Source: Acidimicrobiales bacterium (lineage in GTDB: Bacteria; Actinomycetota; Acidimicrobiia; Acidimicrobiales; JAVJTC01). Taken from it: a stretch of DNA of 64,000 nt. The position numbers and the translations under genes were made by a program. Below the pieces are notes generated by a model. It made no database searches and was not told the DNA's origin. It saw only the letters and a list, made by a program, of their open reading frames with translations. Positions 39,172 through 61,020 of this stretch are shown here, in pieces. Location: positions 62,001 to 126,000 of the forward strand of contig JAVJTC010000020.1 of the NCBI GenBank assembly GCA_040219085.1. The letters run 5' to 3'. Numbering within the stretch: position 1 is the first letter of the stretch; each line of letters starts with the position of its first letter.

Positions 39172-39255
39172 GCCATCTGAGCCCGTACTTCGACCTCTGA
39201 GGAGGCCGTGAGTCAGGCGCCCTGTCGCTTCGGTGTCGGCATCGCCACCAGATCT

Positions 39256-39610: not shown

Positions 39611-39716
39611 CCGACGAATGTGGCGAGGCTAGAAGCACCGTCAGCAGGCACCAACTGCCGCTGTTTGGCAAGGGAGTGTCTGACAGTCCCGCGTGTTGGC
39701 GGGCGACCGGCACGGG

Positions 39717-40610: not shown

Positions 40611-40692
40611 GAGGCTTACTCCCCTCCCTGGTTCACAGGGCCCGACAATACGGTGCTGCGCCCGTGTGGTCGATCTGGTGCCGCACGGATCG

Positions 40693-41316: not shown

Positions 41317-41322
41317 CCGGCG

Positions 41323-41328
41323 AGCGTA
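41323..41328 (-). promoter_or_regulatory. TANNNT -10 box for a leaderless acetyltransferase transcript
   Basis: Reads TACGCT on the minus strand, ending exactly 6 nt before the ATG at 41316. This is the same spacing as at khtT, hyuB, the GNAT gene and the last gene. Confidence 0.5.
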
Positions 41329-41382
41329 CAGCGGTGGTCGAGGGACGTCTGTGAGCCGATCTCGCCGCCCGGACGGTGACAC

Positions 41383-41388
41383 TACGCT
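41383..41388 (+). promoter_or_regulatory. TANNNT -10 box for the P-loop gene
   Basis: TACGCT on the plus strand, 35 nt before the GTG at 41424; a strong CGGGAGGGGG ribosome site lies in the leader. Confidence 0.4.
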
Positions 41389-41423
41389 CGGGGCGCCGAC
41401 GATCTCGTGTCGGGAGGGGGCGA

Positions 41424-43505: not shown

Positions 43506-43533
43506 GGATTCGTTCCTCCGTCGATGTGGTTTG

Positions 43534-45362: not shown

Positions 45363-46472
45363 ATGCGCATCACGTTCGTGACGAGCGTCGCCTTCGGCGG
45401 AGCGCTCGAGAGCTCGAACCTGCTGGCCGACCGCCTCGCGGCGCGGGGCCACGAGGTGGAGATGATCCACGGGACCCGTGGGCACTCGATGCTGAAGACG
45501 TTTCACCGGCGAGCGGTCAACCTGTCGACGAAGCTCTCCGGCACGCCGCTCGAGGACCTGTCGTGGTGGGCGGCCCGCCACCTGCGCCGCTCCGGTGCCG
45601 AGAGGCGTTCCGGCGCGGGCGTCACAGTGGTCGCCGTCGACGTTCCTGAGAACGAGGCGATGCGCCGTCTGGGTGACGGCGTGGACGTCGTAGTCGGCTA
45701 CAGCATCAGCCGTCCCGCCTGGCGCCAGATCCTGGGTCGCGCCCGCGTTGCGGGGGTCCCGACGGTTCTGTACCTGCGAGAGGACGAGTCGCTCGGTCAC
45801 CTGGACCGGCCCGACGCGGCCGACCGCGTCGTGGCGAACGCGGAGGTCCACGCGCGGCGGGCAAGGGACAAGGGGTACGACGCGACGACGATCCCGTCGA
45901 TCATCGACCGTGACCGGTGCCGCGCCGAGACGACGAGGAGCGTGGCGCTGCTGGTGAACCCGATCGCCGACTACGGGGTGGATGTGGTGCTCTCTCTCGC
46001 CGAAGTGCTGCCCGAGGTGCGCTTCGTCCTCCAGGAGTCCTGGCCGCTGACCGGCGAGAACCTCGAGGTTCTCGAGGCCCGCTGCCGCGAGCTTCCCAAC
46101 CTGGAGCTGCGTCGGTTCACGTCGCGCATCGCGGACGTCTACCGGGACGCGAAGGTGCTGCTCGTCCCCTACGGCGACGACAACCGCCCGCGGGTGGTCG
46201 CCGAGGCCCAGACGAACGGCATTCCCGTGCTCGGAGCGGATCGGCCGGGCATCGCGGAGGTGGCCGGTGCCGGCGGTGTGCTAGTCGACCCGGCGAGCGG
46301 ACTCGACGTGTGGGAACGGGAGCTGCGCCGGCTGTGGACCGACGCGGCGCACTACGAGGAGCTGTCGCGTCTCGCCCGCCAGAACAGCGTGGCGGCGGAA
46401 CGCGCCGAGGACGCGCTCGTCGACCGATTCGAGGAGATGGTCACCGAGCTGGTGGGGGCGACGTCGCCGTGA
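45363..46472 (+). CDS. Glycosyltransferase family 4 (first gene of a six-gene operon)
   Basis: 369 aa. GT-B fold: ITFVTSVAFGGALESSNLLA at the N-terminus, GRARVAGVPTVLYLREDESL and VANAEVHARRARDKGYD before the hinge, IPSIIDRD, and the donor motif VPYGDDNRPRVVAEAQTNGI followed by PVLGADRPGIAEVAG (E-x7-E degenerate to PRVVAE). It should use a nucleotide sugar to extend the lipid-linked chain. No membrane helix. The stop overlaps the next gene's GTG (4 bp). The preceding ABC exporter unit is divergent, so the two operons share a 119-bp control region. Confidence 0.9.
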   Translation: MRITFVTSVAFGGALESSNLLADRLAARGHEVEMIHGTRGHSMLKTFHRRAVNLSTKLSGTPLEDLSWWAARHLRRSGAERRSGAGVTVVAVDVPENEAMRRLGDGVDVVVGYSISRPAWRQILGRARVAGVPTVLYLREDESLGHLDRPDAADRVVANAEVHARRARDKGYDATTIPSIIDRDRCRAETTRSVALLVNPIADYGVDVVLSLAEVLPEVRFVLQESWPLTGENLEVLEARCRELPNLELRRFTSRIADVYRDAKVLLVPYGDDNRPRVVAEAQTNGIPVLGADRPGIAEVAGAGGVLVDPASGLDVWERELRRLWTDAAHYEELSRLARQNSVAAERAEDALVDRFEEMVTELVGATSP

Positions 46473-47323
46473 AGCTGTCGGTGATCGTTCCGGTCCTGGA
46501 CGTTGCGGCGACCCTTCCCGCCCAGCTCGAGGCGCTCGGAGCCCAGGACCACGACGGTGACTGGGAGATCATCATCGCCGACAACGGATCGGTGGACGGC
46601 ACGCTCGAGCTCGCCCGCAGTGCCGCGAAGGCGAACCCCCGGGTCACGGTCGTGACCGGTCCCACCGGGATGACCCGCTCGGTCGGGGCGGCACGCAACC
46701 TGGGGATGCGACACGCCACTGGTGACGCCGTCGCGTTCTGTGACGGCGACGACGTGGTGGCCCGCGGGTGGGTGCGTGCCGTGGTGGAGGGTCTCGCGGC
46801 GCACCCTGCTGTGACCGGTCCGCTCGACTATGACCCGTTGAACCCACCGTGGCTCCGTGGCGCGCGAGGAGCGGTCGGCGTCGACCAGTGTCCGATGTTC
46901 GACGGGGTGTTCCCGTTCATGAACGGCGCGAACCTGGCGGTGCGCGGCGACGTGGTCGACGCCGTTGGCTACTTCGACGAGCGCCGCGGCGCCGAGGACA
47001 TCGAGTTCGCGCTGCGGCTCTTCGACAACGGCTACGCCGTCGGGTTCTGCCCCGACATGGTCGTGCACTACCGGCTGCGGGCCGAGCTGGCGACGAACTG
47101 GCGACAGGCACGCGCCTATGGGGCCGGGCGGCGGGGGATCCGCCGTTGTTTGCGCGAACGGGGACTCGACGCGCAAGGACCCAAGTGGCGCAACGCTCTG
47201 TGGCTCGCGCGCCGTCTGCCCTCGATTCGGACCCGCGGCGGCCGATATCGATGGACGTGGGTCCTGGGGAATCTTCTCGGCGAGACGCTGGGCCGCGCCG
47301 AATTGTCCGGCACGGCGAGGTGA
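46469..47323 (+). CDS. Glycosyltransferase family 2
   Basis: 284 aa from a GTG overlapping the previous stop by 4 bp. GT-A inverting enzyme: KLSVIVPVLDVAATLPAQLE, WEIIIADNGSVDGTLELA, GAARNLGMRHATGDAVAFCD with the DxD as CDGDDVV (about residue 90), FPFMNGANLAVRGDV and the ED motif GAEDIEFALRLFDNG. The C-terminus is basic with an aromatic patch, typical of membrane-attached GT2 enzymes. It and the following gene are the same length (284 aa) and alike in sequence, so they are probably tandem duplicates with different specificity. Confidence 0.95.
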   Translation: MKLSVIVPVLDVAATLPAQLEALGAQDHDGDWEIIIADNGSVDGTLELARSAAKANPRVTVVTGPTGMTRSVGAARNLGMRHATGDAVAFCDGDDVVARGWVRAVVEGLAAHPAVTGPLDYDPLNPPWLRGARGAVGVDQCPMFDGVFPFMNGANLAVRGDVVDAVGYFDERRGAEDIEFALRLFDNGYAVGFCPDMVVHYRLRAELATNWRQARAYGAGRRGIRRCLRERGLDAQGPKWRNALWLARRLPSIRTRGGRYRWTWVLGNLLGETLGRAELSGTAR

Positions 47324-48174
47324 GCGCGCCCCCCGAGGTGTCTGTGGTCATTCCCGCGCGCGATGTCGCAGAGACGATCGACGCGCAACTCGACGCCCTC
47401 GAGTGCCAGACCTTCACCGGGCCCTTCGAAGTCGTACTGGTCGACAACGGCTCGACGGATGACACCGTCGCCTGTGCTCTGCGCCATGACCTGGATCTCC
47501 GTGTGGTCAGGGCAACGGATCGAAGCGGTGTCGCCTACGCCCGCAACGTCGGCATCGCGGCGGCCCGTGCCGACATGGTGCTGGTGTGCGACGGCGACGA
47601 CGTCGTGTCTGAGCACTGGGTCGCGTCGATGGTCGACGCGCTGTCGCACGACGCAGTGGTCGGCGGTCCCGTCGAGCTGGAGATGCTCAACACCCCGGCG
47701 CTGGCGGCCAGCCGGGGCCGCAACGACATGTCGACGCCGCTACGGCGCGGCAGCGTGGCCATGTTGCCGGGCTGCAACTTCGGGCTACGGCGCGAGTTGG
47801 TGGATCGTGTCGGTCCCTTCGACGAGCACTTCGACGGGCTCGAGGACCACGAGTACGCGTTGCGGTTGCACGCCGCGGGCGTCCCCATCGGCTTCGCCCC
47901 AGACGCGGTGGTCCACTACCGCTTCCGCACCGCCACGCGCGATCTGGTGCGCCAGGGCTTCTTCTACGGTCGCAGCCACCCGCTGCTGGCCCGCCGCGCC
48001 GAAGAGCTGGGCGCCCCTACTCCGCCGCGGTTCGAGTGGAAGGGGTGGGCCTGGCTCGTCGTGTACCTGCCGCTGCTGTTCCGGGCTGAGCAGCGGTGCC
48101 GGTGGTTCTGGGTGGCCGCCAACCGCTGGGGGCGGGTCGTGGGCAGCGTCGGGGTGAGGAAGATCTGGTTGTGA
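47320..48174 (+). CDS. Glycosyltransferase family 2
   Basis: 284 aa from GTG with a 4-bp overlap. SVVIPARDVAETIDAQLDAL, VVLVDNGSTDDTVACAL, RNVGIAAARADMVLVCDGDD with DxD, MLPGCNFGLRRELVDRVGPF and the ED motif LEDHEYALRLHAAG. It resembles the preceding gene across its length. The C-terminal part has WAWLVVYLPLLFRAEQ, an amphipathic or membrane-associated helix. Probable role: extension of the lipid-linked glycan on the cytoplasmic face. Confidence 0.95.
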   Translation: MSAPPEVSVVIPARDVAETIDAQLDALECQTFTGPFEVVLVDNGSTDDTVACALRHDLDLRVVRATDRSGVAYARNVGIAAARADMVLVCDGDDVVSEHWVASMVDALSHDAVVGGPVELEMLNTPALAASRGRNDMSTPLRRGSVAMLPGCNFGLRRELVDRVGPFDEHFDGLEDHEYALRLHAAGVPIGFAPDAVVHYRFRTATRDLVRQGFFYGRSHPLLARRAEELGAPTPPRFEWKGWAWLVVYLPLLFRAEQRCRWFWVAANRWGRVVGSVGVRKIWL

Positions 48175-49076
48175 GCCCCGCGCTGCATGGGATCCTGGTC
48201 ACCTACCGACGACACGATGACCTCGCCCGGTACCTCGATGTGCTCCGTGGCCAGACGGTCCGCCTGGAGCGGTTGGTGGTCGTCGACAACGAGGCGTCTC
48301 CGGTGGTCGCCGACCTGGTGCGCGCGGCCGCGGACGTGGCTGAGAGGGTCGACCACCTGCTGATGCCGGAGAACACCGGGCCCGCCGGTGCCATCGCCGC
48401 GGGCATGGGAGAGCTCCTCACCACAGCGGGCGACGACGAATGGATGTTCCTGCTGGACGACGACGATCCGCCGGTGCGTGACGACACGCTCGCCGCCATC
48501 GCCGCAGTGGCCGCCGACCTCACCGCGAGGGGCGACGACTGCGGAGCGGTCGGCGCGTGGGGGGCCCGACTCGATCGGTGGACCGGGCGGCTGCGCTTCG
48601 TGCCGGACACCGACCCCGTCGAGGTGGACTACGTGTCGGGGAACTCGCTGCCCCTGTACCGGGTCGGCGCGCTGCGGCGTGTCGGCGTGGGGCCCGCCGA
48701 GCTGTTCTTCGGCTTCGACGACCTGGAGCTGGGTCTGCGGCTCCGGGCGGGCGGCTTCACGGTGTGGTCGGCGGGGCTGGCCGCTGTTCACGGGCTGGGC
48801 GGGAGCGCCCGACCGGGGCGGGTGTCGGGGCGGGTGACGCCGCCCACCTGGCGGCGCTACTACAGCTTGCGAAACCTCGTGTGGATCTACCGCAGGTACG
48901 GTCTTGTCGTGCCGGCGCTGTTCGTGTCGGTGACCGCCGGTCTTCTCAAGCCCCTCGTGAACCTCCCGTTCAGCCCCCGGGTGGCCGGGCGGAGCCTCCG
49001 TCAGAACATGTCGGCGCTGCGGGACGGATGGTCCGGCCGCCTCGGGAGGTCTGTCGATCCGGGGCCCGTCAGATGA
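48171..49076 (+). CDS. Glycosyltransferase family 2 (GlfT2/rhamnosyltransferase-like)
   Basis: 301 aa from GTG with a 4-bp overlap. Motifs: HGILVTYRRHDDLARYLDVL, LVVVDNEASPVVADL, MPENTGPAGAIAAGMGELL, the DxD-like FLLDDDDPPVRDD, and GFDDLELGLRLRAGGF. The PENxGxAGA block and triple-Asp DDD are seen in galactofuranosyl- and rhamnosyltransferases. The C-terminal third has YYSLRNLVWIYRRYGL and a hydrophobic helix VPALFVSVTAGLLKPLV, so it is likely membrane-bound. Donor sugar not determined by sequence. Confidence 0.93.
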   Translation: MSPALHGILVTYRRHDDLARYLDVLRGQTVRLERLVVVDNEASPVVADLVRAAADVAERVDHLLMPENTGPAGAIAAGMGELLTTAGDDEWMFLLDDDDPPVRDDTLAAIAAVAADLTARGDDCGAVGAWGARLDRWTGRLRFVPDTDPVEVDYVSGNSLPLYRVGALRRVGVGPAELFFGFDDLELGLRLRAGGFTVWSAGLAAVHGLGGSARPGRVSGRVTPPTWRRYYSLRNLVWIYRRYGLVVPALFVSVTAGLLKPLVNLPFSPRVAGRSLRQNMSALRDGWSGRLGRSVDPGPVR

Positions 49077-50071
49077 GGAAAGGTGATCCATCCGTGGCTG
49101 GCCGGTTCGTCGATGTGGCTTTCTCGATCGATGAGAACTTCGCCAAACAGGGCGCAGTCGTGCTCGCCTCACTCGCAGCGGTGGCCGATCCCGATTCCCA
49201 TTATCGCGTGCATCTGCTCGGGGACGATCTCACGCCGTCGACGCGCCGGGAACTCCGCCGCATCGCTGAAGACGCCGGCATCGAGCTCAGACTCGTCGAG
49301 GTCGACGACAAGGCGATTCGAGCGCTCCCGGAGCTGTCGGGCAAGACCCGGCCCGCCTACTTCCGCCTTCTGCTGCCCGAGATCCTCGACGGCGTGGCAG
49401 ACCGCGTTCTCTACGTCGACGCGGACACCGTGTTCTGCGCCGATCCTGCCGAGCTCATCGACGTCGAACTCCACGGACGCGCCTTTGCTGCGGTCCGATC
49501 GGGATGGAGCCCCTGGCTGTGTTGCGAAGGCGGGCCGCCCAACTGGCGTGAGCTGGGGCTCGACCCCCGAGCTCCTTACTTCAACTCTGGTGTCCTGGTG
49601 ATGGATGTCGCCGCATGGCGCGAGGAGAACCTCTCCGAGAGGAGTTTCGCCTTCCTCAGCGACAACAGGGACACGATGACCCTCATGGACCAGCAGGCGC
49701 TCAACAGCGTCGTCCAAGGGGAGTGGGCTGAGCTACCTCCCCGCTGGAATCAACAGGAGTACGTGTTCTCCCCAACCGGCCTGGCGCGCGTGATCTGGAC
49801 CGAAGAGGAGGTCCGGGAGGCGATCGACGAGCCGGGGATCATCCACTATCTCGGCCTCCACAAGCCGTGGATGAGCGCAGGGAACCACCCTCAGTCGCAG
49901 CGGTGGTTCGATGCACTCGACACCACGAAATGGGTTGGTTGGCGACCCGAGGAACGGTCTCCGGCGGCGGCAGCGTACAACCGGTTGGTGGTGGCCTGGC
50001 GTGTGATCAGGCACGGATCGATCAAGGGTCGCTCCAAGGCGCCGAGCCGACATGGCCGCCCGGTGCGATGA
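49073..50071 (+). CDS. Glycosyltransferase family 8 (LgtC-like)
   Basis: 332 aa from an ATG overlapping the previous stop (ATGA). GT8 retaining enzyme: FVDVAFSIDENFAKQGAVVL, YRVHLLGDDLTPSTR, RPAYFRLLLPEILDGVADRV, the DxD YVDADTVFCADPAEL, YFNSGVLVMDVAAWR, DQQALNSVVQGEW and a C-terminal HYLGLHKPW metal-binding His. LgtC-type enzymes transfer galactose or glucose to surface oligosaccharides. Its stop overlaps the sulfotransferase start, so sulfation may follow directly on this sugar. Confidence 0.95.
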   Translation: MRKGDPSVAGRFVDVAFSIDENFAKQGAVVLASLAAVADPDSHYRVHLLGDDLTPSTRRELRRIAEDAGIELRLVEVDDKAIRALPELSGKTRPAYFRLLLPEILDGVADRVLYVDADTVFCADPAELIDVELHGRAFAAVRSGWSPWLCCEGGPPNWRELGLDPRAPYFNSGVLVMDVAAWREENLSERSFAFLSDNRDTMTLMDQQALNSVVQGEWAELPPRWNQQEYVFSPTGLARVIWTEEEVREAIDEPGIIHYLGLHKPWMSAGNHPQSQRWFDALDTTKWVGWRPEERSPAAAAYNRLVVAWRVIRHGSIKGRSKAPSRHGRPVR

Positions 50072-50808
50072 TCATCTCCCACGAGCACAGTTTCATCTTC
50101 ATCAAGACCCACAAGACGGCGGGATCATCCATCGAGGCGGCCCTGTCACCTCATGTGGGCGACGACGCGGTTGTCACGCAGCTGCTGCCTGACGAGCCGC
50201 CCGAACACAACAGCCGGAACCATCGCGGGCTCTTCAATCCGATCCCAGATGTCGTCGCCGCATTCCGCGCAGGCCATGATCGGCCGCGTCGCCGGGGTGC
50301 AGGGGTGTTCGAACCCCTGCTCCGGCTGCGGCGGCGTCAGCGCTACTGGGAGCACATGAGTCTGGGAGCAGCCCTTCGCCACTCTCCGCGGGAGGTCGGG
50401 TCCTACTACCGGTTCTGTTTCGAGCGGAACCCATGGGACAAGGTGCTTTCGATCTGGTTCTGGTCCGGGCGCCAGGCGGGGCGGCAGCGGACGATGGACG
50501 GGTTCGAGCGGTGGCTCGACATGCCCGACACGCCTCGCGGTCTGAGGTCGGATTGGCACCTCTACTCGCTCGGCGGGAAGCTGGCCGTCGATTTCGTCGG
50601 TCGATTCGAGGATCTCGAACAGGATCTCCGGGTGGCGATGCGCCCGTGTGGAGTGGACACGTCGATCCTCGAGATTCCCCACCACAAGAAGGCGCCCAGA
50701 TCGCCTGACGTTCAGATAAGTCAAAGGGCGAGCCGTCGAATCGAGGAGATGTTCCACCGGGAGATCGAGGCGTTCGGGTATGAGCCGCCTTCTGGCCTCA
50801 TTGCCTGA
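50068..50808 (+). CDS. Sulfotransferase family 2 protein
   Basis: 246 aa from an ATG with a 4-bp overlap. It opens with IISHEHSFIFIKTHKTAGSS, the PAPS-binding 5'-phosphosulfate loop of the Sulfotransfer_2 family (KTHKTAGSS), and has the 3'-phosphate motif YRFCFERNPWDKVLSIW. No signal peptide; likely sulfates the cytoplasmic lipid-linked intermediate made by the five glycosyltransferases before it. It ends 19 bp from another Sulfotransfer_2 gene pointing towards it. A truncated relative with the same opening (MIISHAHRFIFIKTEKTAG) is at 60515-60775. Confidence 0.93.
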   Translation: MIISHEHSFIFIKTHKTAGSSIEAALSPHVGDDAVVTQLLPDEPPEHNSRNHRGLFNPIPDVVAAFRAGHDRPRRRGAGVFEPLLRLRRRQRYWEHMSLGAALRHSPREVGSYYRFCFERNPWDKVLSIWFWSGRQAGRQRTMDGFERWLDMPDTPRGLRSDWHLYSLGGKLAVDFVGRFEDLEQDLRVAMRPCGVDTSILEIPHHKKAPRSPDVQISQRASRRIEEMFHREIEAFGYEPPSGLIA

Positions 50809-50827
50809 CGATGCTGTTCGACCACTG

Positions 50828-51505
50828 CTATTCGTAACCGAAGATCTCCATATCCAACGCGTAGAGAACGGCAGCGCGCTGCCTGAGAGCGGCGGACCAG
50901 GCGTTGTCTCTCTTCTCCGTCGCGTTCTTTACTGGCACGTCGGAGAACTCGACGTCGAGATGGGCAAACACCTGTCCGAGGTCGGAGGCCAAGTTCTCCA
51001 TCCGCCCGAGAAAGTCGATTCGTGTCAGGTCGATGGAGCGGCTCTGGAGCCGGACGTGCGGCTCAGCGTTTCGTAGGTCCAGCGTCTCGAGGTGCTCGAG
51101 GAAGCCCTCTGGTGACCGGCTCGAAGGCGGTAGTGCGTAGAAGTTCCGGTCCCGGACCTTATTTCGCCAGCACGACTCCAGGCGGTCAACTGGATGGCGG
51201 ACGATTGCCCAAGCGAAATAGCTGTCGAATAGCCGTAGCGGTAGTCGCACGTGCGCTGGGTGCCGGGCTTCGCAGGTTATCGAATGGTCGTCGAACGCCT
51301 GAAGAAGTGCGCGCGATGCAACCTTTGGGACGCGGTACCAAATGAAAGAACTGCTATGACTAATCGTGACGTCATACGGGCGCAAAGGGGTGAGCCGCAA
51401 AGCGCGCTGAAGGTATCGGCCAGGGCGAGTAAGTGTCCGGTCGCGTCCTGGGATCGTTCGGAAGAATCGTTGTGCAATATGCCGCTCAGGCTGTCCAGCG
51501 TTCAA
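50828..51505 (-). CDS. Sulfotransferase family 2 protein
   Basis: 225 aa from a TTG that lies inside the end of the preceding gene (20-bp overlap); an internal start is possible. The PAPS loop is SSSFIWYRVPKVASRALLQA (VPKVASRAL), with the 3'-phosphate motif FAWAIVRHPVDRLESCWRNK. The spacing and 'VPKxAS' form match carbohydrate sulfotransferases of the CHST8/10-like group. Base composition is locally lower in G+C (30 of 60 bases at 51301-51360) than in the bulk. It is the last gene of the minus-strand sulfotransferase operon. Confidence 0.88.
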   Translation of the reverse strand: MNAGQPERHIAQRFFRTIPGRDRTLTRPGRYLQRALRLTPLRPYDVTISHSSSFIWYRVPKVASRALLQAFDDHSITCEARHPAHVRLPLRLFDSYFAWAIVRHPVDRLESCWRNKVRDRNFYALPPSSRSPEGFLEHLETLDLRNAEPHVRLQSRSIDLTRIDFLGRMENLASDLGQVFAHLDVEFSDVPVKNATEKRDNAWSAALRQRAAVLYALDMEIFGYE

Positions 51506-52379
51506 TGAATTGAGTTCTCTCTTCGCGGGTGTAGAAATGCTCGCAGAGCTCGCTCGAATAGACGGCCGACAGTAGCGGTAGGGGAAGGTTGGCGTTCTTC
51601 AGGAACGATGCGTACGGGCCAGCGTTCTTGGTCCGATTCACGTTTACCGGGACGAGCGAAATCTCTGTTGTCTCTCGGAGGAAGTTCCCGATAGCAGATG
51701 GGCCTGCACGGTCGAAATCCTCGAATCGAAGAAGTAGGAGCGAGTGGCGGTCACCGGGGATCAGCTGAGAGCCCTGAGTAGGATCGAACGGGTGTGCATA
51801 GACATCGATTCCTGTAGTCGCCTCTAGTTCGGTTCGAAACCAGTCTTGCTCGACTCCGAGGCGGCGGATCATGGTGCAGATGTCGTCCCGATGGTCCTCG
51901 GCGCTCGAGGAGATGTGGTCGATGGCGCCGCGTTCGAACTGCGACTGAAGGCCGTAGAAATAGGCGGAGACAGCGCGAGCAACAGGTTCACGGACGGCCG
52001 TGATGATCTGCCACCGTCGTCGGCGTGAGGCTCGCATGTGCAGGCTGAGCCATTGGGAGCGCCACCAGAAACGCGGTCGATGGCCACTCACCGAGGAGTT
52101 CGCTGCGGAGATGCGACGACGCAGCTCCCGCTGATTCAGCGTGTGGGCTTTCAACACAGGTCTCGGAGTTGCGGCCTCTAGCGCGTGGGTCAGAGCGCTG
52201 GTTCCGGCCTTCCCCATCGAGTAGACGAGGACTGGATCCTCGCGGCGAAGCAGCATTTCCATCTCGGCCCAAGTGCTGAGCCTGTCGACGACCGAATACC
52301 GGCGCCGGGCGACACGCGCGGGTTCCTTCACCCAATGAGAAATCGGGGATAGGGCACCTGCCGGCCGAGCGGTCACCAC
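51486..52379 (-). CDS. Sulfotransferase-like protein (NKWYS/capsular polysaccharide type)
   Basis: 297 aa. The N-terminal motif PVLVYSMGKAGTSALTHALE is a PAPS-loop variant (MGKAGTS), followed by VLKAHTLN and WQIITAVREPVARAVSAYFY as the 3'-phosphate motif. This arrangement is that of the 'putative capsular polysaccharide synthesis' (NKWYS) family. A late LLLLRFEDFD and NVNRTKNAGP support a sulfotransferase fold. It is cytoplasmic. It starts 6 bp after the preceding gene and overlaps the next. GTG start at 52379. Confidence 0.85.
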   Translation of the reverse strand: MVTARPAGALSPISHWVKEPARVARRRYSVVDRLSTWAEMEMLLRREDPVLVYSMGKAGTSALTHALEAATPRPVLKAHTLNQRELRRRISAANSSVSGHRPRFWWRSQWLSLHMRASRRRRWQIITAVREPVARAVSAYFYGLQSQFERGAIDHISSSAEDHRDDICTMIRRLGVEQDWFRTELEATTGIDVYAHPFDPTQGSQLIPGDRHSLLLLRFEDFDRAGPSAIGNFLRETTEISLVPVNVNRTKNAGPYASFLKNANLPLPLLSAVYSSELCEHFYTREERTQFIERWTA

Positions 52380-52385
52380 GGCCGC

Positions 52386-53156
52386 CTACTGTGCAAAGTC
52401 GCCATGCCGCTTCAGGAACTTGGCGAAGGCCGTGTTCGCTAGCACGTTCGTCACCTCGGAGAGGTTGGCGATCCGGTCTGAAGTCTGGGGTGGAAGGAGC
52501 CGCTTCAACCCGGATGAAAGGGGGATGCTGGTGTCGACACCCAGGAAAGACAGAATGCAGTGATCGTGGTCGGACGGGTCGGCAACCGCTTCTTCGTAGA
52601 TGACCTCGAGATGGGATACCTGCTCAACCAGACGCCTGTGACGACGGATCAATCGCATCCTTCGCTCGAGTTGCTCGACCAGGTCGCTCGTCGGAACGAC
52701 CACTGGCTCCGCGGTGCCACGCCGACCGCGACTGATGAACTTACCGCTGGCGTTCGCAGCCAACGCAGAGACATGGGTGTCGAGGACGTTCTCGCGGACT
52801 AGGTGGAGCACGCTGAAATCATGATGTGGCAGCGAAACCAGGAGAGAGGGGTTTCGCCGCAGTTGGTCGTACATCAGTCGGAAGCCGGTAGCCGGCAGGG
52901 CGGGGTTGCCGAAGCGAACCGCCAGGTAGCGGTTCTTCGAAACCGCCGGGAGAGCAGTTGAGAGGACGCTGCCGACGGTGGAGCGGTGCTGCCAGCTGTA
53001 GTAGGTATCGGCGCTTCCCTGAGACCGTCGGAACAGCTCGCCATCCACCTCGACCTGCGGGTGGCTGCGAAGGCGGTCAGCAAGCCAGTTGGATCCGGAC
53101 CTCTGGGTCGTGAGGATGATGAACCGCGTGGCTGCCGCCTGGCTCGTAGACGCCAT
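52386..53156 (-). CDS. Sulfotransferase (Stf0/Sulfotransfer_1-like)
   Basis: 256 aa from ATG 53156, which overlaps the previous stop by one base (an in-frame start at 53192 would overlap more). The PAPS loop is FIILTTQRSGSNWLADRLRS (QRSGSNWL), the form found in Stf0-like trehalose/glycolipid sulfotransferases, followed by GELFRRS and FSVLHLVRENVLDTHVSALA as 3'-phosphate motif. The C-terminal part has LEVIYEEAVADPSDHDHCIL, common to bacterial members. It differs in subfamily from its neighbours, so it probably sulfates a different position. Confidence 0.88.
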   Translation of the reverse strand: MASTSQAAATRFIILTTQRSGSNWLADRLRSHPQVEVDGELFRRSQGSADTYYSWQHRSTVGSVLSTALPAVSKNRYLAVRFGNPALPATGFRLMYDQLRRNPSLLVSLPHHDFSVLHLVRENVLDTHVSALAANASGKFISRGRRGTAEPVVVPTSDLVEQLERRMRLIRRHRRLVEQVSHLEVIYEEAVADPSDHDHCILSFLGVDTSIPLSSGLKRLLPPQTSDRIANLSEVTNVLANTAFAKFLKRHGDFAQ

Positions 53157-54070
53157 CAGAGAGTCAACGCCCCTTCCGCTCTGGTCAGCCATTTCTCGAA
53201 CGGTCCGTCGAACCGCTCGGCGAGTTCGGCAACTACGGGCAAGTAGAGCCGCGCCAGCTCACGTTCCACTTCGCGGGGCATCGAAGGACCGCTTGCAGCA
53301 TTGATCGGCGGAGGTCCACCGTCGGGGAACTCTCGGGCGTCGATGCCGAGGAACTCGGCAAGGGAGGTCAGGAGCCGGTTCGGATCATCTACGACATCGT
53401 CGAAGAATCCGAGCCATAGAGAACGATTGCCGTAGACGCTCGACCACGTGTCGATCACGTCAATGTAGTGGCGCGGCGAAATCGAGTGTTGAAGGTGTTC
53501 GACGACTGACTCGGGTGACGAGAGGTCGGTTCGTTCCAGCCAACCGTTCCGAGAGCGGTGTTTCAGATGAGACCACGTCCAATCGATGGGGTCTCGCAAC
53601 ATCACCAAGATCTTGGCCTGCGGGCACAGGAGCTGAACGTCGCGGACCTCAGCAACGCCCAACTGGGAGTAGCTCGGAGTCAGTTCACCGCCGATGTACG
53701 CGGCGTCGCGCTCGAAGAGCTTGAGGTACCAAGTGTCGTCGGGTACGCCGATATAGTAGCGCCCGAGCCACGCGAGGTCGCGAATTCGGAGGTGTCCGAT
53801 CGCTGAACGCAAGTCACGCCGGAGCCGGGTCCGAACCTCCTTGGAACGAGCAATCTCGCGCACGCCGTCCCAGCGCGAACTGCGGCGCGACAGGTAGCTC
53901 GCTGATTGGAACGAGGGCGAGCGCGTGAAGTAGTGCAGTTCCTTACGTGGGGGAAGCCACGTCGCTGGGTGAGCTCGCAGCGCGCTTGCTAGCCACGTAG
54001 TGGCGGAGCGGCCCATTCCTGCGCACAGAAAGTCAACGCGCTGGGTCGTGCTGGGCCGGCGGCCAGTCAT
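53156..54070 (-). CDS. Sulfotransferase (NDST-like)
   Basis: 304 aa from ATG with a 4-bp overlap on the upstream GT. PAPS loop VDFLCAGMGRSATTWLASAL (GMGRSATTWL), KELHYFTRS typical of the heparan-sulfate-like group, GELTPSYS, and the 3'-phosphate motif ILVMLRDPIDWTWSHLKHRS. LWLGFFDDVVDDPNRLLTSL and EFLGID close the fold. It is similar in design to the sulfotransferase at 17134-17994. Predicted cytoplasmic, PAPS-dependent, acting on a sugar. Confidence 0.91.
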   Translation of the reverse strand: MTGRRPSTTQRVDFLCAGMGRSATTWLASALRAHPATWLPPRKELHYFTRSPSFQSASYLSRRSSRWDGVREIARSKEVRTRLRRDLRSAIGHLRIRDLAWLGRYYIGVPDDTWYLKLFERDAAYIGGELTPSYSQLGVAEVRDVQLLCPQAKILVMLRDPIDWTWSHLKHRSRNGWLERTDLSSPESVVEHLQHSISPRHYIDVIDTWSSVYGNRSLWLGFFDDVVDDPNRLLTSLAEFLGIDAREFPDGGPPPINAASGPSMPREVERELARLYLPVVAELAERFDGPFEKWLTRAEGALTL

Positions 54071-55314
54071 CGCAGCTGTGCCATTCGGGTGAGAACACGC
54101 TCATCTCGGACGAGGCCTTCCATGTCACGAATCGGGACGATCTGGTTTCGACCTTCCCCCTTCCAGTTCGAATTGAGCCCGTCGTAGTGAAGGTAGCTCA
54201 GGGTCTCGGGTTCCGCGATATAGGACCGGAATGGCCTACGGAGTTCGGCTTGATGCACCCGAAGCAACCGGGCAGTTCCACCGCGAATCATATATTTGCG
54301 CACCTTGCGTATTTCGTCAGGATACCGCCAGGTGAAATCCGTTGCGCAGCGTTCGGGCAGTGGCTTCTCGACGTTCGATGCGGCGGGAACACGGTGCTGA
54401 TAGGTGACCAGTTCACCGAACCAGGGCGGAACGCGCCGGAGGAAGTCCTGAAGTGTCGGGATCTGTCCGTCCAAGGCGAGGTACTCGTCCACATCGAAAT
54501 TCGCAAGCCAGCTGCCCCTACTGGTCATCTGGTAGGCATGATTCAGTGCCCCCCATTGAGCAAACGTCGTCTCGTAGCTGCGATGAATCCCAAACGGAAA
54601 GTCCCACTCGACGAGGATGATGTCAGACGGTGTGGAAACCCGGGAAAGTGCGCCTGCCACTTCGTCTCTATCATCGCTCCCGTTGTCGTAGATGAGGACC
54701 CGGGAGAAGCCGAGACAAGCGTGATAGCGGGCCCAGTCAGCAAGCCATCGGGCAGGGTTGTTCTTCTGAATGGCGACAATGGCCATGCCGCGTTTCGAGC
54801 CCGGCCATCGTCTCGGACGGACAACGGCGGAGAAGGCTCTACCGAAGTGAAGTACGACCTCGCCAAGTGGCCGCCCGAGAGGGCGTGTTGGGAACGTGTA
54901 AGCCCATACCTTGTCTTGTCGAGAGTCGGGCCGCGTGATCCTTGCAGTCCCGAGTTGTATTCGACGACCTCGTGAGCTGATCGATTCTGCGCGAATCGGC
55001 AACAGGTTGTCAGCGAGGTTTCGCATGGGCGGGCCGATCCCATGCAGTCGCCCCCAGCTGTCGAGGAACCAGTCATAGACGACTGTGTAACGATCGTATT
55101 GCGTCAGCTCGCGGGCCGAGATCGGTGTCTGCTCATCCTTGTCAAGTGAGATGTCGTCCGACCTGCGCTCCAAACCGAGATGTCCTGGTACCGACACCGA
55201 CGAGGGGACATACCGAGTTGGTTGCACCTGCTTGAGGCTAGCGGATTGGCCTCTGAGGGAGCGTCGGCCGAGCTGCTCGGGCTTCTCCGGCCAGCAAGTC
55301 GAGGTGGCGATCAC
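54067..55314 (-). CDS. GT92-like glycosyltransferase
   Basis: 415 aa from a GTG overlapping the upstream stop by 4 bp; the first ~85 residues are poorly conserved. AIVAIQKNNPARWLADWARY, CLGFSRVLIYDNGSDD and SWLANFDVDEYL (DxD about residue 270) are typical of the GT92/DUF23 family, which transfers galactose or related sugars with inversion; KVRKYMIRGG and YLHYDGLNSNWKGEGRN follow. It is the only glycosyltransferase inside the sulfotransferase operon, so it may add the sugar that is then sulfated. Confidence 0.85.
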   Translation of the reverse strand: MIATSTCWPEKPEQLGRRSLRGQSASLKQVQPTRYVPSSVSVPGHLGLERRSDDISLDKDEQTPISARELTQYDRYTVVYDWFLDSWGRLHGIGPPMRNLADNLLPIRAESISSRGRRIQLGTARITRPDSRQDKVWAYTFPTRPLGRPLGEVVLHFGRAFSAVVRPRRWPGSKRGMAIVAIQKNNPARWLADWARYHACLGFSRVLIYDNGSDDRDEVAGALSRVSTPSDIILVEWDFPFGIHRSYETTFAQWGALNHAYQMTSRGSWLANFDVDEYLALDGQIPTLQDFLRRVPPWFGELVTYQHRVPAASNVEKPLPERCATDFTWRYPDEIRKVRKYMIRGGTARLLRVHQAELRRPFRSYIAEPETLSYLHYDGLNSNWKGEGRNQIVPIRDMEGLVRDERVLTRMAQLR

Positions 55315-56135
55315 GCAGTTTCGTAGCTGTAGTGCCGAAGGAGTTCGAGAGCCTCTGGAATCGCGAGTAGTTCCCGGACGGGATCCTCAGAGCTGCTTTC
55401 ACGCCACGCTCCCACGGAGTTGGTGGTCACCGCACGCGCTGGGCCGAACCAGGCGGTGTTCGACTTGACGACCGCCGAGGTCGGGTAAGCGAGAAACGCG
55501 GTTACGAAGTCGACTTCGAGGAACTCGCAGACTCGGCGAAGGGTCGGCTCGTACTGGCCTACGAGATCCTCATAGCGGATCGTCAGCACTTGGGGATGGT
55601 CCTCGACGGCCTTCCCGGCTCCCACGTCGGCGACCCAGCGCCGCGGCTGGACATGGGTCGAGTCGGGATTGCTCGGGTGTCTCGACCTGACAACATCACG
55701 GCCGTCTCGCACGATGTTGAGAAGTCGAATGCCGGCACCAAAGTGATCGATAAGCCTCTCGAAGTACCAAACATTGCGGGGCGTCTTCTCGCACCATCGA
55801 CGTGCCGTGGGCGAGATCGCGGACTCGACCAGGTGTTCGTACAGTAGTTCGAGGCGAAACGGCGCATCGAGTCCGAGCTCAGGCTTGAGGGCGCCTCGAC
55901 ACAGCGCGCCGGTCTCCTGGGGAATGGCATGGATCTCCGGATGGCATGAGAGGACGGAAAGCAAAAGCGTCGTGCCCGACCGTCCGCAGCCGCCAATCAC
56001 GATCGGTTCGCGGCTCAATTGTCGGATCCGGCGCACTCGTCCCGGAAGGGCTCGTGTCAGGAGGTAGGTGTTCGAACGGAGCCAGGCCCGCTTGTGTCGG
56101 TAGTGGAAATCGTCCTTGACCCTGTCGAGTCCCAT
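55311..56135 (-). CDS. Sulfotransferase (Sulfotransfer_3-like)
   Basis: 274 aa, first gene of the minus-strand operon. PAPS loop PIVIGGCGRSGTTLLLSVLS (GRSGTTLL), QETGALCRG, WCEKTPRN, and the 3'-phosphate motif LLNIVRDGRDVVRSRHPSN; VLTIRYEDLVGQYEPTLRRV, EFLEVDF and RAVTTNSVGAWRES are classical C-terminal features. All residues expected for catalysis by this family are in place. It is divergent from AP enzyme 2 (82-bp gap). Confidence 0.93.
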   Translation of the reverse strand: MGLDRVKDDFHYRHKRAWLRSNTYLLTRALPGRVRRIRQLSREPIVIGGCGRSGTTLLLSVLSCHPEIHAIPQETGALCRGALKPELGLDAPFRLELLYEHLVESAISPTARRWCEKTPRNVWYFERLIDHFGAGIRLLNIVRDGRDVVRSRHPSNPDSTHVQPRRWVADVGAGKAVEDHPQVLTIRYEDLVGQYEPTLRRVCEFLEVDFVTAFLAYPTSAVVKSNTAWFGPARAVTTNSVGAWRESSSEDPVRELLAIPEALELLRHYSYETA

Positions 56136-56217: not shown

Positions 56218-57798
56218 ATGGCTCCAGTGGCTCCCAACCTTTCTCCAGCAAGTTCCCGACCCCATCATGTGGTCTACGTCGGATTCGACGCCATGGACCA
56301 CCGGGCGGCAGGGAAATTCGCGGCGGCTGGCGCCATGCCGAATGTCGCCAAGCTGCTGGCTTCTGCGCCTCACACCGTGGTGAAGAACCCGGTCGGGTTC
56401 GTCGTCGGCGGGATCTGGCCCAGCTTCCGCACCGGCCGCTGGCCCGGGCGGCACGGGCGGCACTGCTACGTGCAGCTCGAGGTCGGCACCTACGACTTCG
56501 TGCCCGTCGCTCCCGCCGACATCGACGGCACCCATTTCTGGGTCGACGTGGCTGCGGCCGACAAGCGCATTCTCGCCATGGACATGCCCTTCAGCGTGGC
56601 CGTCCCCGAGGCCGGCGGCGTCCAGATCCTCGACTGGGGATCACACGACAGGCGGGTGGCCTACGCCACGGTGCCCGAGCCCGAAGGCGCTGCGATTCTC
56701 GAGGCGCACGGCGAGCACCCCGTGAAGCCCAAGTGTGATGACTTCGCTCGCGCCGAGAGGTGGGAGGAGCTGCGCGACGGGTTGGTCAGAGGGGCCGCGA
56801 CCCACGCGGACATCCTCCTCGACGAGGTCGCCCGTGGCGACTTCGACCTGATCGCCACGGTGTTCGGGGAGAGCCACTGCGCAGGCCACCAGCTGTGGAA
56901 GATCCACGACACGGCCTACGTGGACCACGATGCGCAGCTACGGGCGGAACTCGGCGACGCGTTCGTCGACGTCTACAGCGCCCTCGACGCCCAGCTCGGC
57001 CGGCTGCTCGATGCGCTGCCCGACGCACTGGTCTATCTGCACATGAGCCACGGCATGGGAGCTCACCACGACGGCGACCATCTCCTCGCCGAGATCCTGC
57101 GCCGCCTCGACGACCCCGGCGCCCGGACTGGCGTGCGCGAGCGCCTCGGCCGCCTCGCCCACCGGGCCAAGGGACTGGTCCGGCCGCTCGTCCCTCACCG
57201 CTACCGGCGTGCCGCCTACCAACGGCGCCGCTCCGGCGTCGCCGACAGGATCGTCGAGGACCGCCGCACACGGCGCTTCTTCCACCACCCCAACAACACG
57301 ATGTACAGCGGGATCCGGATCAACCTCGAAGGGCGGGAGCCCGAGGGGAAAGTGTCACGTGCCGAGCTCGACGATACGGTCTCCTGGCTCCGAGCCGAGC
57401 TCGAGTCCCTCGTCGACCCCGCAACCGGCCGAGAGCTCGTCACAGCGGTCCTGCGGGTGTCCGACCTCTACGACGGTCCGCACCTCGACGAGCTTCCGGA
57501 TCTCGTCGTCGACTGGAACCGTGACGCACCCATCTCGAAGGCGTCGTCGCCGACGATCGGCACCGTCACTGGTCGCTACGCCAGCACCCGATCCGGTGAC
57601 CATCGCCTCGACGGCCATCTCTTCGTCACCGGACCCGGTTCCGAAGGCATCGACCTCGGTGAGTCCGTGGATCTCGTCGACATCGCTCCGACGATCGCGG
57701 GACACTTCGGGGTCACCCTCGACGACATCGACGGTCGGCCCATTCCCGGCCTCGCCGAAGTCACCGTGGCGAGGCGTGGGCCGCAGCCGTCCAACTGA
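56218..57798 (+). CDS. Alkaline-phosphatase-superfamily hydrolase (type I phosphodiesterase-like), paralogue 2
   Basis: 526 aa. It has the same architecture as 11668-13179: HVVYVGFDAMDHRAAGKF with the metal Asp, VGGIWPSFRTGRWPGRHGRH, VFGESHCAGHQLWKIHD, LHMSHGMGAHHDGDHLL and GHFGVTLDDIDGRPIPGL at the end. At the place where paralogue 1 has PGTIWPELHTG this one has VGGIWPSFRTG, so the candidate nucleophile Thr is Gly here and another Ser/Thr must serve, or activity is altered. No signal peptide; no formylglycine sulfatase motif. Embedded between a sulfotransferase operon and another glycosyltransferase, it probably handles a sulfated or phosphorylated glycan intermediate. Confidence 0.82.
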   Translation: MAPVAPNLSPASSRPHHVVYVGFDAMDHRAAGKFAAAGAMPNVAKLLASAPHTVVKNPVGFVVGGIWPSFRTGRWPGRHGRHCYVQLEVGTYDFVPVAPADIDGTHFWVDVAAADKRILAMDMPFSVAVPEAGGVQILDWGSHDRRVAYATVPEPEGAAILEAHGEHPVKPKCDDFARAERWEELRDGLVRGAATHADILLDEVARGDFDLIATVFGESHCAGHQLWKIHDTAYVDHDAQLRAELGDAFVDVYSALDAQLGRLLDALPDALVYLHMSHGMGAHHDGDHLLAEILRRLDDPGARTGVRERLGRLAHRAKGLVRPLVPHRYRRAAYQRRRSGVADRIVEDRRTRRFFHHPNNTMYSGIRINLEGREPEGKVSRAELDDTVSWLRAELESLVDPATGRELVTAVLRVSDLYDGPHLDELPDLVVDWNRDAPISKASSPTIGTVTGRYASTRSGDHRLDGHLFVTGPGSEGIDLGESVDLVDIAPTIAGHFGVTLDDIDGRPIPGLAEVTVARRGPQPSN

Positions 57799-58910: not shown

Positions 58911-60614
58911 GTGATCATCGACGCAGCCTCTCTCGCCGGCAGCAACAGCCTGGAGACCGATGTGTGCATCGTCGGATGCGGGCCCGCCGGCGGAACGGTC
59001 GCGCTGGAGCTCGCCGACCGCGGACTCGAGGTCGTTGCTCTCGAGGCGGGCCCCGACGGGATGCCACCGATGCCCTCCGACGGGGAGACCGCCGAGGTCA
59101 CCGGCGTGCCGTATCCGGTCGAGGCGTCACGGCTCGAGCACCTCGGCGGGTCCGCGCCGATGTGGCACGTGTGGAACCCTGGAGATGGCGGGCCGCTCGT
59201 TCGACTCGGCCCGCTGCGCGCGGAGCACTTCGAGGAGCGACCGTGGCTGCCCAACACCGGTTGGCCGTTCGGCCGGGACCACCTCGAGGGCTGGTTCGCC
59301 CGCACCGCCGACGTGCTCGGGATAGCGGAACCCGACTTCGGCGTCCCCGCTGCTCTCGACGCCGTCGCCCGGGACCTCGTCGACGGGTTCGTGCCCGGGA
59401 CACTGAGGTTCGGCCCACGTAGCGCCATCGTGGAGGTCCAACGCCGGCGGCTCGAGGCCTGTCCCGCACGGGTCGTGGTCAACGCCCCGCTCATCCGGCT
59501 CTGCCCAGGTCCGGGCGAAGCCTCCATCGCCACCGCCGTCGTCCGTACCCCGGCCGGCGAAGAGGTCCACGTGGCGGCTCGGGCGTTCGTGCTCGCCGCC
59601 GGCGGCATCGACAACGCCCGCGCGCTGCTGCTGCTCGCCGGACCCGACGACCGCGGACCCGGGAACCGCCACGGGCTTGTCGGCCGGTTCTTCACCGAGC
59701 ACCCCCACCGTCGCACCGCAGTCATCCGTACGAGGTCCTCGCTGCTCGACCCGGTCGAACAGACCCGACACGCGACCACCGACGGCGAGCTCTGGTTCTT
59801 CACCGACCCGGACGAGGCCCGCCGCCGGGGAACCGGCTCGCTCGGGATCGGCGTCAACGCGGCCGGTCCCCTGATCTTCGCCCGGGGCCGCTGGCTCGAC
59901 CGGCCAGCCGAAGGCGACGGCGCCTTCGGCGAGCTGTGGCGCCACTCCCTACGCCACGACCGGAGCCCATCGCCCGCCGACCTTGTCCGCGCCGGCGTGC
60001 GCGATCCCGTGCCGGCCGCGTCCCACCTCGCCCGACGGGCCGTGGCCGCGGTCGACGCATGCCGGCTTGCGAAACGTCGCCGCTCCGAGGAGCGCTTCTA
60101 CTCGCTGCACGTGATGGCCGAGCACCGCTCGCTGCCCGACAACAGGGTCACCCTGTCCCCGCGTAAGGCGAGCGACGGCCTCCCCCTCGCCCGGCTGCAC
60201 TTCACCCTCGACGACGGCACCCTCGCCGACATCCGGGCGAACCACGAGGCCTTCGTCGACAGCCTACGGCGCCGCCTCGACGGGGAGCTTGTCAGCCGTT
60301 CCGCCGACTACCGCTCGCCTGCAGGCTTCAGCTGGGGCTACCACCACATGGGGACGACCCGCATGCATCCCGACCCCGCCCGAGGCGTCGTGGACGCCGA
60401 CTGTCGTGTTCACGACCTCGACAATCTCTACGTCGCCGGGTCATCGGTTTTCCCCACGTCCGGTGTCACCAACCCCACGTTCACCCTCGTCGCCTTGGCA
60501 CTTCGGCTGGCAGATCACCTGGCGGGGCTGCTCCTGACCGGCGACGAGGGCGGTCGGCGTCCGGAAGCCGCGCCAGGCCAACCGAGCGATGCCCGTTCGA
60601 GCCCACCGACATAG
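58911..60614 (+). CDS. GMC-type FAD-dependent oxidoreductase
   Basis: 567 aa from GTG with CGGAGAG 7 nt upstream; the longer open frame upstream is not family-like. CIVGCGPAGGTVALELADRG is the FAD-binding loop (~residues 19-38); FVLAAGGIDNARALLLLAG and the C-terminal YHHMGTTRMHPD with catalytic His and NLYVAGSSVFPTSGVTNPT with the second catalytic residue (Asn in place of His) define the GMC fold. These enzymes oxidise alcohols, sugars or sterols. In this context oxidation of a sugar or polyol attached to the glycan is likely, substrate unknown. The last 100 bp overlap, on the other strand, a broken sulfotransferase. Confidence 0.92.
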   Translation: MIIDAASLAGSNSLETDVCIVGCGPAGGTVALELADRGLEVVALEAGPDGMPPMPSDGETAEVTGVPYPVEASRLEHLGGSAPMWHVWNPGDGGPLVRLGPLRAEHFEERPWLPNTGWPFGRDHLEGWFARTADVLGIAEPDFGVPAALDAVARDLVDGFVPGTLRFGPRSAIVEVQRRRLEACPARVVVNAPLIRLCPGPGEASIATAVVRTPAGEEVHVAARAFVLAAGGIDNARALLLLAGPDDRGPGNRHGLVGRFFTEHPHRRTAVIRTRSSLLDPVEQTRHATTDGELWFFTDPDEARRRGTGSLGIGVNAAGPLIFARGRWLDRPAEGDGAFGELWRHSLRHDRSPSPADLVRAGVRDPVPAASHLARRAVAAVDACRLAKRRRSEERFYSLHVMAEHRSLPDNRVTLSPRKASDGLPLARLHFTLDDGTLADIRANHEAFVDSLRRRLDGELVSRSADYRSPAGFSWGYHHMGTTRMHPDPARGVVDADCRVHDLDNLYVAGSSVFPTSGVTNPTFTLVALALRLADHLAGLLLTGDEGGRRPEAAPGQPSDARSSPPT

Positions 60615-60775
60615 GCCCGGTGCGCTCTGTGACGGCGCTGGACGACCTCGTCCTCCTCCCAGAATGGGGTGATGTCGTCGGATCCGCAGTATCGGGAGAG
60701 GGCGATCTCGAGACTGGTTCCTGCGGTCTTCTCGGTCTTGATGAAGATGAAACGGTGCGCGTGGGAAATGATCAT
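60515..60775 (-). pseudogene. Truncated Sulfotransfer_2 family gene
   Basis: An 86-codon frame begins with the ATG of MIISHAHRFIFIKTEKTAG, the PAPS loop region of the family and nearly the same as the opening of the intact gene at 50068. After about residue 45 similarity stops and the rest reads out as low-complexity sequence overlapping the GMC gene end. The 3'-phosphate motif and all downstream parts are missing. The start overlaps the ACP stop by 4 bp (ATGA), so it was once the last gene of the FkbH-ACP unit. Confidence 0.8.
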
Positions 60776-61020
60776 CCGTCGCTGCAGGTCAGCTGACGGA
60801 TCACCGCTGCGAGTTCCCCGACGTTCGCGAGTGCCTCGATGTCGTCGGCTGCGAACTCGATGCCGAACTCCTCTTCGATCGCGTAGATGAGGGAGATGTG
60901 GGCGACCGAGTCCCACCCCACGACGTCGTCCGTCGTCGTCGCCGCCGAGATGGTCACGTCGTCGTCCATGAACACGTCGCGAAACACGGCCTCGAGCCGT
61001 CTCGTCACGTCGTCATCCAT
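60772..61020 (-). CDS. Acyl carrier protein
   Basis: 82 aa ACP fold. The phosphopantetheine Ser lies in VGWDSVAHISLIYAIEEEFG (WDSVAH; the usual DSL with Val for Leu), about residue 38, and helices 1-4 are all present. As it follows directly on FkbH (start inside the FkbH end, 8-bp overlap), the cargo is probably a glyceryl unit derived from 1,3-bisphosphoglycerate. No polyketide synthase is near, so the group may be passed to a glycan by the neighbouring acyltransferase. Confidence 0.94.
   Translation of the reverse strand: MDDDVTRRLEAVFRDVFMDDDVTISAATTTDDVVGWDSVAHISLIYAIEEEFGIEFAADDIEALANVGELAAVIRQLTCSDG

Follow-up and report, generated by a model that had tools for sequence, protein, structure and literature searches.

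A foreign-looking sulfotransferase operon beside glycosyltransferase genes suggests a sulfated surface polysaccharide in an Acidimicrobiales bacterium

Six sulfotransferases of several families lie side by side

Six sulfotransferase genes and one GT92/GT2-like glycosyltransferase gene occupy positions 50068-56135 of the window (the whole 64,000-nucleotide stretch of DNA analysed here), and an ORF check found all of them open and intact. Five of the sulfotransferase genes (P2, P3, P4, P5, and P7) form a tightly packed minus-strand operon with the glycosyltransferase gene (P6), and this operon runs towards a glycosyltransferase operon on the plus strand, whose last gene is the sixth sulfotransferase gene, P1. 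A preliminary description had proposed this gene set in two convergent operons, and both points held: all seven proteins exceeded a Pfam cut-off (22 bits for Sulfotransfer_2, 25.1 for NKWYS, and 27 for Sulfotransfer_3), and the facing stops lie at 50808 (P1, plus) and 50828 (P2, minus).

50068-50808, plus strand: P1, Sulfotransfer_2, last gene of the plus-strand glycosyltransferase operon (Pfam 27.5 bits)
50828-51505, minus strand: P2, Sulfotransfer_2, last gene of the minus-strand operon (Pfam 47.8 bits)
51486-52379, minus strand: P3, NKWYS family, sulfotransferase fold predicted (Pfam 55.3 bits)
52386-53192, minus strand: P4, NodH/Stf0-like Sulfotransfer_3 (Pfam 39.6 bits)
53156-54070, minus strand: P5, Sulfotransfer_1/3 (Pfam 45.2/35.3 bits, 45.2 being Sulfotransfer_3)
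54067-55314, minus strand: P6, GT92/GT2_4-like glycosyltransferase (Pfam GT2_4/GT92 44.9/36.5 bits, both above cut-off)
55311-56135, minus strand: P7, Sulfotransfer_3, first gene of the minus-strand operon (Pfam 70.9 bits)

Operon status follows from gene overlaps only, since no promoter or terminator stood out at the locus, and the 37-nt overlap of the P5 ORF with P4 leaves the position of the P4 start codon in doubt. The sulfotransferases lack transmembrane-like segments (maximal 19-residue hydropathy 0.7-1.4).

By Pfam, the sulfotransferases comprise two Sulfotransfer_2, one NKWYS, and three Sulfotransfer_3 proteins, in line with the several subfamilies first described, and one finer label required revision. 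P4 had been called Stf0-like, but the Stf0 profile (PF09037) reached only 19.2 bits, under its cut-off of 22; P4 is nearer to NodH, the LPS sulfotransferase that is its only solved-structure match (9vki, E 1.3e-3), and a plasmid relative carries the annotation Nodulation protein H. For P5, “NDST-like” is loose, because its best solved match is 3rnl (E 3.7e-10) and it had no match to solved NDST/HS3OST structures at E<0.01. NCBIfam provided no name for any island protein, except a far sub-threshold NoeE match.

Cofactor loops are retained in all six proteins

Both PAPS loops, the 5'-PSB (K/R, G/A, S/T) and the 3'-PB (R...S), are present in 6/6 sulfotransferases of the island, as initially reported, and loss of PAPS-binding residues was not seen. 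The loop residues are invariant across relatives for P1 (K13, K16, R120, and S128 among eight class members), P2 (K61, R103, and S111), P7, and the NKWYS protein P3 (K57, R130, and S138 in the family alignment), while P4 and P5 were judged from a single sequence. The fold was tested for P3 only, the least certain of the six, which is modelled with a PAPS-sulfotransferase fold: for a structure prediction with pLDDT 75, VIA-align listed sulfotransferases in 50/50 entries (Z 7.8-9.3), with Foldseek alone yielding weak matches. A single-sequence AlphaFold model of P1 was of low confidence (pLDDT 38).

One alternative is that some members (NKWYS, P4, and P5) are P-loop enzymes transferring a group other than sulfate, in keeping with the naming of NKWYS only as “putative capsular polysaccharide synthesis protein” and with the weak sequence-level match of its profile to solved sulfotransferases (E 0.2-0.6). 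However, the fold comparison and the invariant K, R, and S of the NKWYS loops, together with NKWYS genes sitting among other sulfotransferases in another genome (G184), make this reading very improbable.

The island is embedded in a sulfotransferase-rich region with putative polysaccharide genes

The surroundings of the island include further sulfotransferase genes and extensive glycan-assembly functions:

17134-17994, minus strand: NDST/HS3OST-like Sulfotransfer_1 gene (Pfam 43.1 bits)
37424-45243, minus strand: two ABC exporters, GT2, hexapeptide acyltransferase, Bac_transf priming enzyme, and sugar epimerase (Pfam), adjoining the glycosyltransferase operon
45363-50071, plus strand: glycosyltransferases GT4, GT2, GT2, GT2, and GT8, leading into P1 (Pfam; mostly 4-nt overlaps)
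60515-60776, minus strand: truncated Sulfotransfer_2 (P1-like) remnant (sequence comparison with P1)

The gene at 17134 matched solved NDST/HS3OST structures with E 6.5e-16 to 1e-10 (1t8t 6.5e-16, 1nst 1e-14), which bears out its first annotation as NDST-like. The truncated gene at 60515, also first read as NDST-like, belongs instead to Sulfotransfer_2: it reads MIISHAHRFIFIKTEKTAGTSLEIALSRYCGSDD and is 52% identical to P1 over 54 residues. An ACP-FkbH pair lies near this remnant, and an Asn-synthase/HPrK-like/PqqD-like cluster with a sulfotransferase at its end is found further upstream on the contig. The 14 glycosyltransferase genes originally counted in the window correspond to thirteen glycosyltransferase-family genes and one Bac_transf priming gene.

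At the scale of the contig, 12 sulfotransferases fall within 93 kb, of roughly 19 found across the 3.77 Mb genome, and this clustering is not due to chance. The same contig encodes a Sulfotransfer_3-GT4 fusion of 684 aa, which, together with a sulfotransferase-glycosyltransferase fusion in G184, ties sulfation to glycosyl transfer. Sulfotransferases, glycosyltransferases, a priming enzyme, and export genes are thus co-located, as in clusters of the xss and wps-1 type. Cofactor supply is encoded elsewhere: a cysC, cysN, and cysD operon beside a CysQ-like gene, with the single APS kinase copy of the genome, is unlinked to the island (contig C29 vs. C20). In a further genome (G217), a cysDNC operon runs directly into three Sulfotransfer_2 genes.

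The minus-strand operon is foreign in composition

Horizontal transfer is the probable source of the minus-strand operon (51-56 kb). Its GC content is 0.59-0.62 vs. 0.69, the GC3 of P2-P7 deviates by z = -2.7 to -5.0, with P6 lowest within the operon, and P7 has its nearest matches among proteins from KSB1 and Planctomycetes, its relatives (36-54%) spanning KSB1, Planctomycetota, Marinimicrobia, Woesearchaeota, Myxococcota, and Cyanobacteria. This composition, the extent of the roughly 93 kb sulfotransferase-rich region, and the Sulfotransfer_2 identity of the 60515 remnant had escaped the preliminary description. A phage origin was rejected (P2 and NKWYS had no match in 50,697 phage records, nor P4 in viral contigs), as were a mobile-element signature (no tRNA within the window and no convincing flanking repeats) and an anti-phage defence role, for which PADLOC returned nothing for the seven genes. 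Both exporters match PADLOC mad3/mad8 through their ABC ATPase domain.

Other families of the class also have loci with multiple sulfotransferases: six genes in 9 kb in G184/G352, six in 9 kb in G020, and eight in 19 kb in G215. Their sets differ between genomes, and none of the other genomes searched had exactly this combination of six genes. Some of the P1 relatives within the class (33-46%) share the glycosyltransferase context, and G020 retains the GT4-GT2-ST2 gene order. In G035, a P2 relative (32%) adjoins a P1 relative, together with GT4s, a deacetylase, DUF4012 homologues, and an ABC exporter 36% identical to the one at 37424.

Surface-glycan loci swap cassettes, and many of these sulfotransferases might be unexpressed or transient members of an imported, largely redundant gene store. 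The foreign composition of P2-P7, the truncated remnant, the cross-phylum relatives of P7, and the genome-to-genome variation would all fit, but 6/6 genes are intact and tightly packed and have kept their cofactor residues, and we regard such a store as improbable.

A multi-enzyme sulfation module is the favoured interpretation

We consider it likely that the enzymes of the island act together in the cytoplasm to sulfate a cell-surface polysaccharide at multiple sites, and that horizontal transfer has enlarged this module. The PAPS loops, the PAPS supply operon, the glycosyltransferase and exporter context, and the sulfotransferase-glycosyltransferase fusions make a multiply sulfated surface glycan, as first suggested, the best explanation. 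With six different sulfotransferases in a row, of which five lie in DNA of foreign appearance next to sugar-chain genes, the organism probably has a surface coat of heavily sulfated sugar polymer; polymers of this kind have been described in few bacteria other than cyanobacteria. From the gene content, we infer the acceptor, the order of steps, and the sulfated product, as well as the dense, site-specific character of the sulfation.

The CysD, CysN, and CysC proteins would make PAPS, with the CysQ-like phosphatase clearing PAP, while the Bac_transf enzyme would prime a lipid on which cytoplasmic glycosyltransferases build an oligosaccharide. During assembly, each of the soluble sulfotransferases, which belong to different families, may modify its own position or residue before export and polymerisation by ABC and Wzy-type machinery. 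The imported operon, situated at the end of a class-shared GT4-GT2-GT8-Sulfotransfer_2 operon type, would add sulfation positions and one sugar.

The acceptor cannot be read from the sulfotransferase family, and lipids, peptides, and small molecules are possible substrates. The product could therefore be of low molecular mass, such as a sulfoglycolipid, a Nod-factor-like lipo-oligosaccharide, or a peptide, as for mycobacterial Stf0 and rhizobial NodH. NodH is the nearest solved relative of P4, and the sulfotransferase-terminated Asn-synthase cluster and the ACP-FkbH pair point the same way; yet the neighbouring genes are many GT2/GT4/GT8 enzymes, a priming glycosyltransferase, ABC exporters, and Wzz/Wzy-type genes, such lipids need fewer than six sulfotransferases, and relatives in other families occupy the same kind of polysaccharide locus. 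A low-molecular product thus appears unlikely, and a sulfated polysaccharide is preferred. Much more tentatively, the class as a whole may make densely, multiply sulfated, heparin-like surface polysaccharides through mix-and-match, horizontally traded sulfotransferases, NKWYS (PF10364) being one family.

Comparison with known systems

Sulfated polysaccharides are, as initially noted, little described in actinobacteria outside mycobacterial sulfolipids, and bacterial ones are stated to be known almost only from cyanobacteria (PMC13390465, PMC8205485). Granular sludge contains sulfated GAG-like material whose producers and enzymes were not identified there (PMC10483923). Loci of this kind point to organisms and enzymes outside the cyanobacteria that are candidates for making such polymers. 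They also suggest a function that can be tested for the NKWYS family and, with their several sulfotransferase classes, supply bacterial enzymes for the synthesis of heparin-like polymers.

The term “undescribed system” was nevertheless an overstatement, as sulfotransferase-bearing polysaccharide clusters are described in xss (PMC8205485) and wps-1 (PMC13390465). The synechan xss cluster of Synechocystis PCC 6803, whose sulfated product is proven chemically, likewise places sulfotransferases of distinct subfamilies inside a glycosyltransferase/polysaccharide cluster (Wzx-Wzy in xss); however, this cyanobacterial cluster has two sulfotransferases, whereas the present region has six in 6 kb and 12 in 93 kb, and the passages of PMC8205485 used here mention no NKWYS or NodH-like member, both of which are present here. 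The wps-1 cluster of Actinoplanes missouriensis (2026) is also an actinobacterial polysaccharide cluster, of Wzx/Wzy type, with sulfotransferases of different families, an adjacent sulfate adenylyltransferase/APS-kinase-family gene, and a putative sulfated product; its sulfotransferases number two, belong to other families, and are both required for normal sporangia (PMC13390465). Pontiella sulfatireligans (Verrucomicrobiota), for which a sulfated GAG-like polymer was measured, similarly has a sulfotransferase within a glycosyltransferase cluster (a putative sulfated-GAG cluster), but only one, and three in the genome (PMC7356697). P4 resembles NodH in sequence; unlike NodH and Stf0, it is part of a multi-sulfotransferase operon, and the Stf0 profile stays under its cut-off. 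Since the xss and wps-1 precedents have two sulfotransferases each, this locus belongs to a known type but carries its sulfotransferases at higher density.

Organization of the sulfotransferase island

All seven genes that a preliminary description placed at 50068-56135 are present as open, intact reading frames, and six are sulfotransferases with Pfam matches above cut-off, the NKWYS protein (P3) being included in this total via loop-residue and fold evidence:

50068-50808 (+), P1, Sulfotransfer_2
50828-51505 (-), P2, Sulfotransfer_2
51486-52379 (-), P3, NKWYS
52386-53192 (-), P4, NodH/Stf0-like Sulfotransfer_3
53156-54070 (-), P5, Sulfotransfer_1/3
54067-55314 (-), P6, GT92/GT2_4-like
55311-56135 (-), P7, Sulfotransfer_3

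As described, the operons are convergent, their facing stops 19 nt apart, and both are tightly packed, with overlaps at 46469/46472, 47320/47323, 48171/48174 and 50068/50071 (plus strand) and 55311/55314, 54067/54070, 53156/53192 and 51486/51505 (minus strand). Subfamily labels required revision: P4, called Stf0-like, falls below the Stf0 cut-off and is instead nearest to NodH, while P5, called NDST-like, is a Sulfotransfer_1/3 member with no NDST match at E<0.01. The gene at 17134 does show the proposed similarity to NDST/HS3OST; the remnant at 60515 is indeed a truncated sulfotransferase, but P1-like Sulfotransfer_2 rather than NDST-like, and the reported 14 glycosyltransferase genes are reached when the Bac_transf priming enzyme is counted in. 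Directly upstream of the remnant, genes for an acyl carrier protein and an FkbH-domain protein (60772-62929, -) suggest a glyceryl-type modification. Two PF01663 (type I phosphodiesterase/nucleotide pyrophosphatase) genes lie at 11686-13179 (+) and 56218-57798 (+), one of them divergent from the island operon.

The PAPS loops noted earlier (5'-PSB and 3'-PB) occur in every island sulfotransferase. Invariant residues are K13, K16, R120 and S128 in the P1 family, K61, R103 and S111 in the P2 set, R52, S53, G54, T55, R143 and S151 in the P7 family, and K57, R130 and S138 across seven NKWYS members of the class. The predicted NKWYS model (pLDDT 75) gave weak Foldseek matches, topped by the sulfotransferase 3rnl; in VIA-align, whose list comes from Foldseek's own candidates, 50/50 listed entries were sulfotransferases, at moderate Z (7.8-9.3, with 8-9 considered moderate). 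This uniformity and the invariant loop residues argue strongly for the NKWYS protein as a predicted sulfotransferase. The term NKWYS itself does not occur in the literature searched.

Genomic context and PAPS supply

The window spans C20:62001-126000 of the source genome (3.77 Mb, 45 contigs). Contig C20 carries 12 sulfotransferase genes between about 24.9 and 118.2 kb, in addition to the remnant. One is a Sulfotransfer_3-GT4 fusion (C20:26907-28961, L010:6907-8961), whose 684-aa product carries Sulfotransfer_3 at 9-230 and GT4 at 330-655 in one chain; another locus (L122:8394-12140) has an analogous 1248-aa ST-GT-GT fusion. Companion genes encode Wzy_C, Wzz/tyrosine-kinase-like and ABC exporter proteins and two DUF4012 proteins of 777 and 774 aa (window 31822-34155; C20:41056-43380, L011:1056-3380). 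DUF4012 homologues also accompany sulfotransferase loci of two other class genomes, G035 (L130) and G184 (L132). PAPS supply is represented by a cysC, cysN, cysD operon on contig C29, adjoined by a gene of the inositol-phosphatase family, plausibly CysQ. Separately, PqqD-like, HPr-kinase-like, Asn-synthase and nucleotidyltransferase-like genes, with a Sulfotransfer_1 gene last (C20 about 46.0-53.9 kb, L011:6000-13900), resemble a lasso-peptide-type RiPP cluster that includes a sulfotransferase.

Distribution across the class

Among 395 class genomes, NKWYS occurs in 8, Sulfotransfer_2 in 37 (with the highest number of matches, five, in the window's genome) and Sulfotransfer_3 in 205, so lone sulfotransferases are ordinary and it is their density and mix that are unusual. 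A search for the same gene set, as previously proposed, did not recover the exact combination from any other genome it covered. Multi-sulfotransferase architectures nevertheless recur:

G184 and G352: 6 sulfotransferases in 9 kb, two of them NKWYS, alongside genes for an ABC-2 exporter
G020: 6 in 9 kb
G215: 8 in 19 kb
G035: 4 in 9 kb

G020 keeps the window's GT4-GT2-Sulfotransfer_2 gene order, and in G035 relatives of P1 (46%) and P2 (32%) sit among homologues of the window's GT4s (54-62%) and of its deacetylase, ABC exporter and DUF4012 gene. In a further class genome, G217 (L126:44-5770), cysD-cysN-cysC continue without break into three tandem Sulfotransfer_2 genes.

Signs of import

P2-P7 have GC of 0.59-0.62 and GC3 of 0.67-0.76, compared with averages of 0.69 and 0.86 across 108 other genes on the contig (z -2.7 to -5.0); P1 is intermediate (z -2.1). 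Relatives of P7 at 36-54% identity came from KSB1, Planctomycetota, Marinimicrobia, Woesearchaeota, Myxococcota and Cyanobacteria, in a scan that starts from exact peptide patterns and in records from which genomes close to the window's may be missing. In a tree, P7 clusters with KSB1 proteins apart from the class's own Sulfotransfer_3 proteins, with SH-aLRT 89 (below the 95 mark) and with the class represented by its top family scorers rather than P7's nearest relatives. By eye, the KSB1 relatives (L104-L108) adjoin genes for an apparent solute symporter and large secreted proteins, not a capsule locus. Around the island we found neither a mobile element nor a boundary repeat. A second lower-GC3 patch, at C20 about 29-40 kb (L010) and containing a Sulfotransfer_2 gene (32939-33547), is possibly another import.

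Proposed mechanism and comparison with known systems

In the simplest account, a lipid-linked oligosaccharide would be sulfated at several positions in the cytoplasm, then exported and polymerised. The island proteins contain no transmembrane-like segments, which together with the sulfotransferase-glycosyltransferase fusions and shared operons supports sulfation during assembly; a polymeric product and the sulfation of particular positions are inferred.

Two cluster papers present bacterial sulfated polysaccharides as essentially cyanobacterial (PMC8205485, PMC13390465), and a granular-sludge study describes the enzymes making bacterial sulfated glycans as largely unknown (PMC10483923). The locus had been put forward as a candidate for an undescribed system, but it has precedents and is not a new category: the synechan cluster has two sulfotransferases and a proven product (PMC8205485), Actinoplanes wps-1 has two and an unverified product (PMC13390465), and Pontiella has a sulfated GAG-like polymer (PMC7356697). 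Relative to these, the island represents a denser variant that also has extra families and shows signs of import.
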